Shown: piece by piece, positions 214 to 5,413 of the stretch
Position numbering within the stretch: position 1 is the first letter of the stretch
Layout: each line of letters begins with the position of its first letter
NCBI RefSeq assembly: GCF_000327505.1
Contig: NC_019942.1
Coordinates: 1,302,001 to 1,366,000, forward strand
Origin: Aciduliprofundum sp. MAR08-339
GTDB taxonomy: Archaea > Thermoplasmatota > Thermoplasmata > Thermoplasmatales > Aciduliprofundaceae
Direction of reading: 5' to 3'
Length of the DNA stretch: 64,000 nucleotides
Translations under genes and position numbers: made by a program
Notes under the pieces: generated by a model
What the model was told of the DNA's origin: nothing
Databases searched by the model: none
The model's input: the letters and a program-made list of their open reading frames with translations, nothing else

Positions 214-1458
214 TCAATGTCCAAACACCTCCTCCAAGATGCTTTCCTTCATTTCCTTCAGTTGCGAAATCTGATTATGGATTTTCTCTTTCAGTGCTTT
301 GATTTTCTCATAAACGCTATCAAGGTAGTTCGCTATTTCTTTCTGCTTTTCAAGGTCTGGCTGGTTGTTGTGGAAGGGTAGGGGGATTTTGAGGTTTTTA
401 AGATGGTTTTTAGTGATTGCCTTAAATGTTGTCCCTCTTCTTCCCAAATCTTCTATCCTTTCTTTCATGTTAATAAGCAAATAGAACAAGTACTTGGACT
501 CCCCGTTAAACCTTATGGCAGCTAATCCTCTTCCAATACAGTATTCACCATCTGCAATATTCACATCGCCTACAGGTGCTCTGACTGAAATTAGAACATC
601 GTTTTTCTTACAAAGTTTTTTAGGATCTGTGGTGTATATGATAGGTTTAGGGTAAAGTTCTCTAAATTCTTTGTTTCCTTGGAGAAATAAGACTCCTTTT
701 CCTTTTTTATTGTAAGAATTTGATGGGGGTGATTGCCCCATTATTATTTCAGCAATTGTTTTATCCCCCAACCTCACCTCCCTCCACTCCTCGCCCTCCT
801 TCGGTTTAAACGCCTGCTCTAAGACGCTTTCCCAGAGTTCGTCAAGTTGCTCAAGTTCTTTCTTTTTCTTCTCCAGAATTTTGTCAATTCTTGAAAAGTT
901 TGCCTCAATGTATTCAACGATTTTCTTTTGAGTTTCTAAATCTGGCTTGCCGTTGCGGAAGGGGAGATAAATACTTATTTTTCTTACCTTTTTAAGGTTA
1001 AGCATTTTAAATAGTTTTCTTCCGTAAGATTTTAAAAATGTGGAAGAAATAAGAGAATAAAAAAGATATTTGGGCAGCACCGAATCGCAATTATAAATTC
1101 CTGCAATGTTTTGATTTGTTGCTGCAGGAAAAGTTAGATATCCTACTTTCCCTAATGTAGCACCTACAAGCGCAATTAAAATCGTGTCTTTTGGAAAAAT
1201 TTTTGCGTTAGAGTTTAGCAAGCCGGCCTCTGTAATTCTTTCTTTTACCATTGTAGGATATACATACTGATTTTGACAAACTTCTGACCGAACCCATTCT
1301 ATGTCTCCATTCCAGTATTCTTTAACACTTCTTTTAGGGGTTCCCCCACTCTCAATGTTTTTACAAATGTCCCCCAACCTCACCTCTCTCCACTCAACCC
1401 CTTTAACTTCCCACGGTTTTGGAGATTTTATGTAGTCGTCAAGTTTTGCTGTTTTCAT
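214..1458 (-). CDS. hsdS: Type I restriction-modification specificity subunit HsdS
   Basis: HsdS chooses the DNA target of the Type I complex through two target-recognition domains (TRDs). The 414-residue protein shows the expected two-fold layout: TRD1 (about 23-175), a central helical spacer (about 180-220), TRD2 (about 224-370) and a distal helical spacer. Each TRD opens with the same WREVRLGD block, and each is closed by a similar LPF-x-N-x-x-PDLE-x-QK segment leading into a long coiled-coil-like helix. The ATG overlaps the end of hsdM (ATGA), so the three hsd genes form one operon in the order R-M-S. The recognition sequence cannot be read from the protein. The locus is AT-richer than the housekeeping genes to the right, as expected for transferred restriction genes. 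Confidence 0.93.
   Translation of the reverse strand: MKTAKLDDYIKSPKPWEVKGVEWREVRLGDICKNIESGGTPKRSVKEYWNGDIEWVRSEVCQNQYVYPTMVKERITEAGLLNSNAKIFPKDTILIALVGATLGKVGYLTFPAATNQNIAGIYNCDSVLPKYLFYSLISSTFLKSYGRKLFKMLNLKKVRKISIYLPFRNGKPDLETQKKIVEYIEANFSRIDKILEKKKKELEQLDELWESVLEQAFKPKEGEEWREVRLGDKTIAEIIMGQSPPSNSYNKKGKGVLFLQGNKEFRELYPKPIIYTTDPKKLCKKNDVLISVRAPVGDVNIADGEYCIGRGLAAIRFNGESKYLFYLLINMKERIEDLGRRGTTFKAITKNHLKNLKIPLPFHNNQPDLEKQKEIANYLDSVYEKIKALKEKIHNQISQLKEMKESILEEVFGH
764..789. repeat. hsdS: Direct repeat copy 1 inside hsdS (start of TRD2)
   Basis: A 26-base segment encoding the EWREVRLGD block of the second TRD. It matches 1370-1395 at 25 of 26 positions in the same orientation. Near-identical DNA at the two TRD borders is what would let TRDs be exchanged by homologous recombination. 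Confidence 0.85.
1370..1395. repeat. hsdS: Direct repeat copy 2 inside hsdS (start of TRD1)
   Basis: Partner of 764-789, with one mismatch over 26 bases. It encodes the same EWREVRLGD block at residues 22-30 of HsdS. Confidence 0.85.
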
Positions 1459-2891
1459 CTTAACATCCCTTTCAACTCTTCAAGCAAAGTAAAAATCTTT
1501 TTTTCCTCTATCAAAACATCTTCTAAAATATCTCTTGCTGGCCTATAATCCTTCTTCTTTAACTTGTTTGGGTTTCTTGGCGTTAATTCGTAAGTTTCCC
1601 TATCAATCTCATCAATCTTAACAATCCAAGAGTTTTCGCTTATTTCTCTGTTCTTCCACTTTTCATAGCAATCCTGCCAGTCCTCATCTATCATAGGTCT
1701 CGTTTTGGTAAAGTTCTTCATGCCTTCTGGTGGTTGAATCTCATAGTACCAAATCTCCTGAGTTGGTCCTGTTTTGTCAAAGAAAAGAAGATTTGTTTTA
1801 GAGGGAGTTTTACCCGTTGCTGTGAACACCCCCCTTGGTAAAGAGATAATCGTATGCACATTGTAATTTTCAAGAAGCTCTTTCCTAACCCTTACAAATG
1901 GACTGGGGATGTTTGATAAAACGCCCTCTGGAACCACTATGCCCACTCTACCACCATGCTTTATTTTCCTCATCACGTACTGGAGAGCCATTAACTCGGT
2001 ATCAGAACTCTTGATGGGAAAATTGGCCTTGTATCTCTTATCAAACTTACCTCCAAATGGAGGATTTGTCATTATTATGTCAAAGCGGTCTTTCTCCTGA
2101 ATCTTTCTTATATCCTCTGCAAAGGTATCCATCTTGTATATGTGGGTTGTTGGAACTCCGTGAAGCAGGAGATTCATTATGCCAATAAGATACGGGATGT
2201 CCTTTTTCTCCTGGCCATAAAACATATGTTCTAACTCCTCCTTATCCTTCGTTGTCATAACCTTCTTCTTCCTCAGGATATGATTATAACTCTCTATAAG
2301 AAAGCCAGCAGAACCCATAAATGGGTCCAGAACTCTCTCTCCTATTTCTGGATTAACTATATTCACCATCAGCCTAATTACAGATCTTGGGGTGTAGTAT
2401 TCTCCAGCATACTTGCCCATTTCTCCAATCTCCGGCAAAAGTTCTTCGTATAGGGTTGAAATAACATAGATATCTTCCTTGGTCTTCAGTTCTAGCTCAT
2501 CCAAATCCAGAGCAACTTCTTTGAGAACATACCCATCTTTGAGAAAATTCTGAATTTCTTTACCGCTGAATATTGTGGATATCAGTTCTTTCTCTCCACT
2601 TCCATTAAGGCTCGCCAAGAATGGGAAAAGTTTGTTGTTTATAAAATCAAGAACTTCTTCGTCTCTCATATCTTTGTGGAGCCAGTCTTTCCACCTGTAG
2701 GGTGGTGGGATATTCCTGAAATAGGTAGTACCGTTCAACTTGGCTTTTAATTCTCTCTCATCTTCCAACTCATCGTAGAGTTTTAGAAACAGCATCCAGG
2801 ATAACTGTACTATATAATTCACCGACGCAATCTCGTTTCTAAGTTTATTGGCAGCAGCCTTGAATTTGGAGCTTAGCATAGACCTATCCAT
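1455..2891 (-). CDS. hsdM: Type I restriction-modification methyltransferase subunit HsdM (N6-adenine)
   Basis: Methylates adenine at the N6 position using S-adenosylmethionine, as part of the M2S and R2M2S complexes. The 478-residue protein has an N-terminal helical HsdM domain (about 1-140), then the GEYYTPRSV block (about 160), the SAM-binding motif DPFMGSAG (about 188-195) and the catalytic NPPFGG motif (about 275). The C-terminal part matches the usual HsdM tail. The start shares one base with the hsdR stop (TAATG) and the stop overlaps the hsdS start by four bases, so translation is probably coupled. All catalytic motifs are intact, so the methylase is predicted to be active. Confidence 0.95.
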   Translation of the reverse strand: MDRSMLSSKFKAAANKLRNEIASVNYIVQLSWMLFLKLYDELEDERELKAKLNGTTYFRNIPPPYRWKDWLHKDMRDEEVLDFINNKLFPFLASLNGSGEKELISTIFSGKEIQNFLKDGYVLKEVALDLDELELKTKEDIYVISTLYEELLPEIGEMGKYAGEYYTPRSVIRLMVNIVNPEIGERVLDPFMGSAGFLIESYNHILRKKKVMTTKDKEELEHMFYGQEKKDIPYLIGIMNLLLHGVPTTHIYKMDTFAEDIRKIQEKDRFDIIMTNPPFGGKFDKRYKANFPIKSSDTELMALQYVMRKIKHGGRVGIVVPEGVLSNIPSPFVRVRKELLENYNVHTIISLPRGVFTATGKTPSKTNLLFFDKTGPTQEIWYYEIQPPEGMKNFTKTRPMIDEDWQDCYEKWKNREISENSWIVKIDEIDRETYELTPRNPNKLKKKDYRPARDILEDVLIEEKKIFTLLEELKGMLR

Positions 2892-5413
2892 TAATTGATC
2901 CCTCCTATATCATAGAGACCTTCAGAAAGTTCTTGAAGTGTCTCTTGAAGTTTATCAATGCCTCCAAAGGCATTTATTATCTCCTGAAGTTTTCCAATTC
3001 TCTTAATATCTGGGGTATCCAGGGCCCTTGGACTGATCTCATCAATACCCCCAAGTTTGTATTTTTCAATTAGATTAAGAAGCACCTCTTTAGCCACTTC
3101 GTTAAATGAGTTGATAATTTCCTGTTTCTCCACAAGAAGGATCTGTGCCCTATCGTCCCTGCTCATGATTGGGGCATCAAAGGCAATATGGGCAAGTATG
3201 TCAAAGGCATCTGCATCAGGGCGATTCATAAGTTGAGCGATTAACTCGGGATTAATACTCTTGTCTTGCAACTCTTTAAGAAATCTCTCCCTTTTCTCTC
3301 TATTAACCCAAATTTTCCTTAAATCGTCCAGAGTTAGCACTTTCTTCTTCACATTCTCCTTAGCATATTCAATGTATTTAGCCTTGGATAGTTTCTGACT
3401 GGGAGAAATTTCAATATAAATTTCCTCCTCAATATGGACATTTATTCCCTCTACAACGATTTTACCCTCAGTAGGTTTTTTCTTTTTAAGCTCTATAACT
3501 ATCCCAACTCTATCTGCAGAGGGCATGGTATCCACTGTTACTGTTCTTGGCTTGTAATTCTTTGCCTCAACCTTGACCCTCACTGGAACTCTGGGAAGTT
3601 TTGATATTCTAAACTCACCCATCTCATCTGTCCTTCCAGGAACAATTGAGTTCACTCCTATTTGTACGGTTATTCTTGCATAGGGTACTGGTGCTCCATC
3701 TTCCTCATCAACGACTTTTCCACGAATATAATAATCATACGGTCCTTCAGGTAGTTCAGGCGGAGGGACTTCAGGAGGCATATCCCATGGATCTAACAAT
3801 CTCGTAGCATCAACGAAATCAATTATTCTGAAATAGAATTTATCGGCATCTTCACTTATTCTACTTCCACGGCCCATTATCTGCTTGAAGAGCACCTTTG
3901 ATGCAATAGGTTTCATAAATACTATATTTTTCACGGGAGGTACATCAATACCCGTGCTAAGCAAATCAACTGTAACTGCAATTACTGGGGTTGGAGATTC
4001 TGAATCGGCCATTTTATCTACAAGCTCTTTAACATTTGGCTCTTCATCAACGATTCTTACAACATAATCGTCCACATTTATTCCTGTGGTTGCCACATCT
4101 GGAGCAAGCTCATTCTGTAGTATCTTTACCACATCCAATGCATGCTCTTTTGTTACACAGAATACAATGGTCTTGTCTATTGGCCCATATGTTCTTAGAA
4201 TCTCAGCGAGTTTCTTTGTCATTGCCCCTGTCCTGTCAGGGAGTATGATCTTCTTCTCAAACTCACCTACCGTGTAGAACTCCTTCGGCTTGATATTTTC
4301 AGGAACATTTATTATGGCTCCCTCACTTGCGACTTCTCCGAGAATTATACCTCCCTTTTTGTCAATGTTCATGTAGATCTTGTGAATTTTGTATGGTGCC
4401 AAGAAACCATCCTCGATCCCCTGTCCTAAACTATATATGTACACAGGCTCTCCAAAGTAAGCATAGGTATCTATGTTATCATCTCTCTTAGGAGTGGCAG
4501 TCATACCAAAATGGACTGCACCACTAAAATAATCCAAAATCTCCCTCCAGCGACCATAGCCAGAGCGATGACATTCATCAATTATAACCATATCAAAGAA
4601 ATCCGGTGGATAGTTTCTGTACAGTCTATTTCCATCCTTTTCCGAATAAAGTGTTTGGTATGTAGCAAAATAAATATCTCTTATATTGGGAGTCTTCCCT
4701 TCAATAATCAAATCTCTCTTTTTTCCAAAGGGTTCAAATCGATTATATGCTTGGTCTCTGAGCATTGTTCTATCAGCTATATAGAGAACCCTTCTTATTT
4801 TCTTAGTATGATAAAGTTTCCAAACAACCCAAAAGGCCACTTCCGTCTTTCCGGTGCCAGTGGCCATGGTCAGAAGAATTCTTTTCTTGCCATTAAGAAA
4901 TGCCTCTATTACATTCTTAACTGCAGCAATTTGATAATATCTGGGTTTTTTACCAAAAGAAACTTTGAATGGATGGGTAAGAGGATTTTCCTCTTTTTTG
5001 AGAGGAATAACTTCGCCAAATTTCCATTTGGAGTATCTCTTCCATAGTTCTTCAGGAGATGGAAACTCTGGTAAGGTTGTCTGTTTCTTACTTATAAAGT
5101 CATACTCCTCTATTTTGTGACCATTAGTAGAATAGGCAAAAGGAACATGAAGCATTTTGGCATATCTCTTGGCTTGCTGTATACCTGCAGCATGGTGATG
5201 ACTTTCATCTTTTGCCTCCACTACAGCTATAGGAAAGTTTGGCTCCAAGAATAATATGTAATCTGGTATAAGTGCATCTTTTCTATTACCATAATCATCA
5301 ATTATTCGTCCCTCTGTAATTCGTAATTCCCTTCCTATCTTACTCTCATCCCATCCAGCCTTGTAGAGCTGTGGGTTTATTAATTTACTTCTTGTATCTG
5401 CTTCATTTAGCAT
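2891..5413 (-). CDS. hsdR: Type I restriction endonuclease subunit HsdR with an embedded beta-sandwich domain
   Basis: Motor and nuclease subunit that translocates and cuts unmethylated DNA. In order: a PD-(D/E)xK nuclease core (P50-D51 then E66-A-K68), helicase Walker A ATGTGKT (184-190), DECH box (279-282), TAT motif (305-307), motif VI QIMGRGSR (511-518) and an EcoEI-type C-terminal helical region. Between the second RecA domain and the C-terminal region, residues about 562-642 form a segment resembling the carboxypeptidase regulatory-like (transthyretin-like) beta-sandwich, with GKVVDEEDGAPV, ARITV, GRTDEMGEF and a VEAKNYKP strand. That fold is normally found in secreted proteins. AGGTGA (5418-5423 on the complement) sits four bases before the ATG. 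This is the first gene of the operon. Confidence 0.94.
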   Translation of the reverse strand: MLNEADTRSKLINPQLYKAGWDESKIGRELRITEGRIIDDYGNRKDALIPDYILFLEPNFPIAVVEAKDESHHHAAGIQQAKRYAKMLHVPFAYSTNGHKIEEYDFISKKQTTLPEFPSPEELWKRYSKWKFGEVIPLKKEENPLTHPFKVSFGKKPRYYQIAAVKNVIEAFLNGKKRILLTMATGTGKTEVAFWVVWKLYHTKKIRRVLYIADRTMLRDQAYNRFEPFGKKRDLIIEGKTPNIRDIYFATYQTLYSEKDGNRLYRNYPPDFFDMVIIDECHRSGYGRWREILDYFSGAVHFGMTATPKRDDNIDTYAYFGEPVYIYSLGQGIEDGFLAPYKIHKIYMNIDKKGGIILGEVASEGAIINVPENIKPKEFYTVGEFEKKIILPDRTGAMTKKLAEILRTYGPIDKTIVFCVTKEHALDVVKILQNELAPDVATTGINVDDYVVRIVDEEPNVKELVDKMADSESPTPVIAVTVDLLSTGIDVPPVKNIVFMKPIASKVLFKQIMGRGSRISEDADKFYFRIIDFVDATRLLDPWDMPPEVPPPELPEGPYDYYIRGKVVDEEDGAPVPYARITVQIGVNSIVPGRTDEMGEFRISKLPRVPVRVKVEAKNYKPRTVTVDTMPSADRVGIVIELKKKKPTEGKIVVEGINVHIEEEIYIEISPSQKLSKAKYIEYAKENVKKKVLTLDDLRKIWVNREKRERFLKELQDKSINPELIAQLMNRPDADAFDILAHIAFDAPIMSRDDRAQILLVEKQEIINSFNEVAKEVLLNLIEKYKLGGIDEISPRALDTPDIKRIGKLQEIINAFGGIDKLQETLQELSEGLYDIGGIN

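Follow-up and report, generated by a model that had tools for sequence, protein, structure and literature searches.

The locus analysed here encodes a cytosolic DNA enzyme with a fold that is most familiar from surface proteins, situated where a restriction motor is coupled to its methyltransferase. The window (the whole 64,000-nucleotide stretch of DNA analysed) comes from a 1.44 Mb archaeal genome, and close relatives of the locus sit in genomes of the DHVE2 group (Thermoplasmatota). Three overlapping minus-strand genes, hsdR, hsdM and hsdS, make up a complete type I system (Table 1), with motifs that look intact in all three subunits. HsdR exceeds the cut-off of NF046051 (760.9 against 550 bits), aligning in two stretches of which the best spans residues 2-541, and matches the HsdR structure 3h1t with an E-value of 1.6e-125 across residues 2-549. 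Its C-terminal region carries EcoEI_R_C at residues 679-834 (91.7 bits against a cut-off of 24), and its Walker, DECH, TATP, motif VI and nuclease sequences are intact on reading, as the first-pass annotation had held. Together with the adjoining hsdM and hsdS, these features place the protein among EcoAI-type (type IB-like) HsdRs. The Pfam matches of HsdM are N6_Mtase (206 bits) and HsdM_N (57 bits), with no extra domain in the Pfam scan, and HsdS matches Methylase_S in two stretches (159 bits). In PADLOC, the best match of hsdR is REase_I and that of hsdM is MTase_I, with mad2 also matched; the best match of hsdS is mad5 of the methylation-associated defence system (MADS). For further mad genes, the analysis covered the neighbouring ORFs by reading.

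Table 1. Features of the type I cassette and of HsdR, with positions in the window and HsdR residue numbers.
Feature	Position	Strand	Description and basis
hsdS	214..1458	-	414 aa, two target recognition domains; 4-base overlap with hsdM
hsdM	1455..2891	-	478 aa, intact; 1 base in common with hsdR
hsdR	2891..5413	-	840 aa; EcoAI/FtnUII family type I restriction motor subunit
N-terminal nuclease domain	5081..5398	-	residues ~6-111; PDYILFL...AVVEAK and QQAKRYA read from sequence; HSDR_N and HSDR_N_2 above cut-off
Helicase domain 1 (RecA1)	4388..4951	-	residues ~155-342; MATGTGKT, IIDECHR, MTATP; ResIII 147 bits
Helicase domain 2 (RecA2)	3794..4231	-	residues ~395-540; motif VI QIMGRGSR; Helicase_C 29.9 bits; 3h1t alignment
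Pro-rich linker	3737..3793	-	residues 541-559 (DPWDMPPEVPPPELPEGPY); carrier alignment; pLDDT 50-58 in model
Insert, predicted CarboxypepD_reg / transthyretin-like beta-sandwich	3476..3736	-	residues 560-646; Pfam, AF2, Foldseek
G-(V/P)-N turn	3650..3658	-	residues 586-588; column counts among carriers
Beta-hairpin (VEGINVHI...) and EcoEI_R_C helical region	2900..3454	-	residues 654-838

The first-pass annotation had read positions 3488-3730 (residues 562-642) as a carboxypeptidase regulatory-like domain, and this was right to within a few residues; we set the limits at about residues 560-646. Two Pfam families exceed their cut-offs in the whole protein, PF13620 (CarboxypepD_reg; residues 563-629, E 3e-12, 47.1 bits against 32.3) and PF13715 (CarbopepD_reg_2; residues 563-646, 35.4 bits against 32.2), and PF13620 scores up to 51.4 bits against the isolated segment. 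An AF2 model of residues 541-690, built with an 11-row alignment (ten relatives), contains a beta-sandwich of seven strands (561-569, 580-585, 589-594, 600-606, 611-616, 623-627 and 638-642) with a block pLDDT of 83-94 over residues 561-640 (about 90); in this fragment, confidence is low for the flanking Pro-rich linker and the following hairpin. The top Foldseek matches in the PDB are the transthyretin-like domains of carboxypeptidases N and D (2nsm, E 3e-5; 5aq0, TM-score 0.79 on target), and a PDB profile search gives weak matches to cellulosomal modules, NOMO2 and SusC-type domains. A chance match is excluded by the agreeing fold search and by the aligned relatives, 18 of 18 of which also match PF13620 (E <= 0.1). 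These data firmly support a predicted seven-strand beta-sandwich of the CarboxypepD_reg / transthyretin-like type. A single-sequence AF2 model of the whole HsdR (pLDDT 35) was discarded.

The insert resembles the transthyretin-like domain of metallocarboxypeptidases N and D (PF13620) in predicted fold and sequence profile, and differs in lying inside a cytosolic DNA motor and in the G-(V/P)-N turn that its carriers share. Its HsdR host combines DNA enzyme domains with a start that lacks a hydrophobic segment, whereas most relatives of the family are extracellular, a habit of the family and not a defining feature. The first-pass annotation had called the fold typical of secreted or surface proteins, and this is borne out in the insert's own genome: four other ORFs with CarboxypepD_reg (L292, L293, L294 and L295; 994-2081 aa) each have a hydrophobic start, beginning as surface proteins would. 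Recent capture from a surface gene of its own genome is unlikely, as deeply diverged HsdRs share the insert and, in one Archaeoglobaceae genome (G261), the sole PF13620 match lies in hsdR.

Within HsdR, the positions of motif and Pfam matches agree with the placement proposed earlier, between helicase motif VI and the C-terminal helical region. Motif VI is followed by the Pro-rich linker, the insert, a beta-hairpin and EcoEI_R_C, and the hairpin sequence is also present in HsdRs without the insert. The order of nuclease, two RecA domains and EcoEI_R_C is that of the EcoAI/FtnUII (type IB) HsdRs, represented by NF046051 and by 3h1t (annotated as a type I R subunit), but most sampled members of this family lack the insert, and the best NF046051 stretch of the present HsdR stops at residue 541.

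The distribution of the insert was surveyed in 138 distinct EcoAI-type HsdR sequences, taken from genome draws of five phyla together with seed loci and classed by the segment that links motif VI to the C-terminal region; a fetched subset of the HsdRs listed in the draws, not every one, enters this set. The segment holds the insert in 19 sequences, Cys-rich repeats in 18 and a low-complexity linker in 101. The earlier view that the insert is an addition is thus upheld, and its being an ordinary part of the EcoEI-type fold is ruled out by the 119 of 138 HsdRs that lack it. Nine of the 19 carriers are seed loci, found by similarity to the HsdR of the window. Without the seed loci the insert is found in 10/128 (2/5, 1/21, 4/45, 3/12 and 0/45 by phylum draw), which is not an unbiased rate because four of the five phyla were picked for holding a carrier. 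The segment measures 146-150 residues in carriers, 96-114 in Cys-repeat proteins and 62-124 in plain ones. Carriers occur in DHVE2 and other Thermoplasmatota, Archaeoglobaceae, Hydrothermarchaeum, a MAG labelled Deltaproteobacteria, the WOR-3 phylum and the Herpetosiphon plasmid pHAU02 (L209), with the proviso that MAG binning errors could explain part of the odd taxon labels. One scan of viral contigs found no carriers. Our literature search, with subscription papers and domain-architecture databases outside its scope, returned no relevant description of HsdR or type I restriction with a carboxypeptidase regulatory or transthyretin-like domain. HsdR with this insert is therefore a real and conserved minority variant, apparently undescribed.

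To place these carriers in the history of the family, a tree was built from the helicase and C-terminal regions, omitting the linker. Insert labels change twice on this tree against 18 times when shuffled, and carriers form a few supported groups beside weakly supported forks. A single carrier clade is not rejected (p-AU 0.27; thinned set, n=54), so that the sequences are compatible with a single acquisition. Across 171 pairs, insert identity tracks helicase identity (Spearman 0.79), and this comparison shows the insert to have been inherited together with the rest of hsdR. Among the nearest loci, identity is 74-87% for HsdR and about 80% for HsdM, while HsdS reaches mostly 40-46% (60% in one case) and the flanking genes differ. 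A mobile cassette would be expected to show this pattern. The insert probably entered once, in place of a disordered linker, after which R, M and S spread together between archaea and bacteria.

In the two usable DHVE2 pairs (L015 vs L016 and L015 vs L017) the dN/dS of the insert is 0.03-0.04, within the range of the nuclease, helicase and C-terminal regions; the very close pair L016/L017 gives 0.23, from very few changes, and dS is near or at saturation in the remaining locus pairs. Judged by these codon comparisons, the insert is shown here to be under purifying selection like the catalytic domains. Median identities among diverged pairs are 54% for the helicase, 40% for the C-terminal region and 29% for the insert, which by this measure is the fastest-changing of the three regions, yet is kept. 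At residues 586-588, N is found in 17/19 and G in 15/19 carriers; as far as can be judged from such counts, the G-(V/P)-N turn, P592 and R623 appear conserved beyond the needs of the fold.

What the insert might do is suggested chiefly by where it lies. In EcoR124I (type IC), the HsdR motor likewise leads into a helical domain at the C-terminus, which is believed to assemble with HsdM; the connection from helicase domain 2 is just a short linker, no beta-sandwich has been described there, and mutations at the interface of helicase 2 and the helical domain alter ATPase activity, translocation and cleavage (PMC5248579). The insert sits at the place corresponding to this linker, and we infer that EcoEI_R_C has the equivalent role in EcoAI-type enzymes. 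From this position we favour a structural role within the R2M2S complex, as spacer or docking module, at a probability of roughly 0.5. The insert could be a rigid spacer or provide a further face for docking, most probably onto HsdM or HsdR itself, and would set how the motor is held during DNA pumping. Since the nearest loci share no fourth gene and HsdS is variable, a partner encoded in the cassette is more likely R or M than S. The insert is a conserved extra domain at the joint between motor and methyltransferase.

Selection for stable folding alone could yield part of the conservation described above, and the site is permissive, accepting very different contents. The insert might accordingly be a tolerated passenger, a compact domain in a permissive linker with no function beyond not disturbing the enzyme. 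We regard this as unlikely given the purifying selection, the segment length held across deep divergence, the conserved turn and proline positions, and the absence of clear loss among the close relatives of carriers. Slightly less probable still is that the insert makes contact with a partner from outside the cassette, be it another defence protein, a factor of the host or an anti-restriction protein of a phage. Transthyretin-like domains often serve as protein-binding modules, and the weak PDB profile matches include modules of cohesin-dockerin complexes. Many predicted tail and baseplate proteins of phages have similar folds too, but this shows no more than how widespread the fold is. Against an outside partner, the carrying loci share no gene besides R, M and S, which argues mildly against a locally encoded partner, and a dedicated host partner is made less likely by the occurrence of the cassette in phyla of both archaea and bacteria. 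The first-pass annotation had suggested contact with a phage-encoded inhibitor or another defence protein; nothing in this analysis points to either.

A fold of binding-module type makes a ligand possible as well as an outside partner. The insert could on this account sense a ligand or DNA, e.g. phage DNA modified by glycosylation or the duplex as it leaves the motor, given that the site adjoins the motor and that many carriers have a Lys-rich segment between insert and hairpin. This seems to us very unlikely: basic residues precede the hairpin in HsdRs without the insert as well, the insert shows no recognisable signature of catalysis or binding, and its net charge, counted per domain and not per surface patch, varies from -8 to +7 among carriers, which speaks against a generic DNA-binding face.

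The insert is one of two kinds of extra material found at this site. In 18 of the 138 HsdRs (L172, L162, L164, L170, L175 and 13 further loci), the region matching positions 3476-3793 of the window holds tandem CPxCGxxPCxC repeats, which look zinc-knuckle-like; the two such linkers that were scanned gave no Pfam match. These EcoAI-type proteins resemble the carriers in having additional residues at the same place, but have Cys-rich repeats instead of the sandwich and occupy another part of the tree. The joint between motor and methyltransferase thus varies between branches in kind, not in length alone, and provides a natural set of variants for testing its control over translocation and cleavage. 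It is conceivable, though the odds are against it, that the motor-docking linker of EcoAI-type HsdR is a slot for modules, occupied, depending on the branch, by unrelated folded modules (the transthyretin-like sandwich or the Cys-rich knuckle repeats) or by disordered sequence, and that these modules tune or gate the motor via partners or ligands.

Two minor observations concern individual loci. An ORF of 571 aa directly follows hsdS in L015 (11241-12956) and L016 (11202-12917), and is absent from the window and L017. In L020 (6001-8515), HsdR is split into ORFs of 129 and 676 aa, perhaps by a frameshift or an assembly error.
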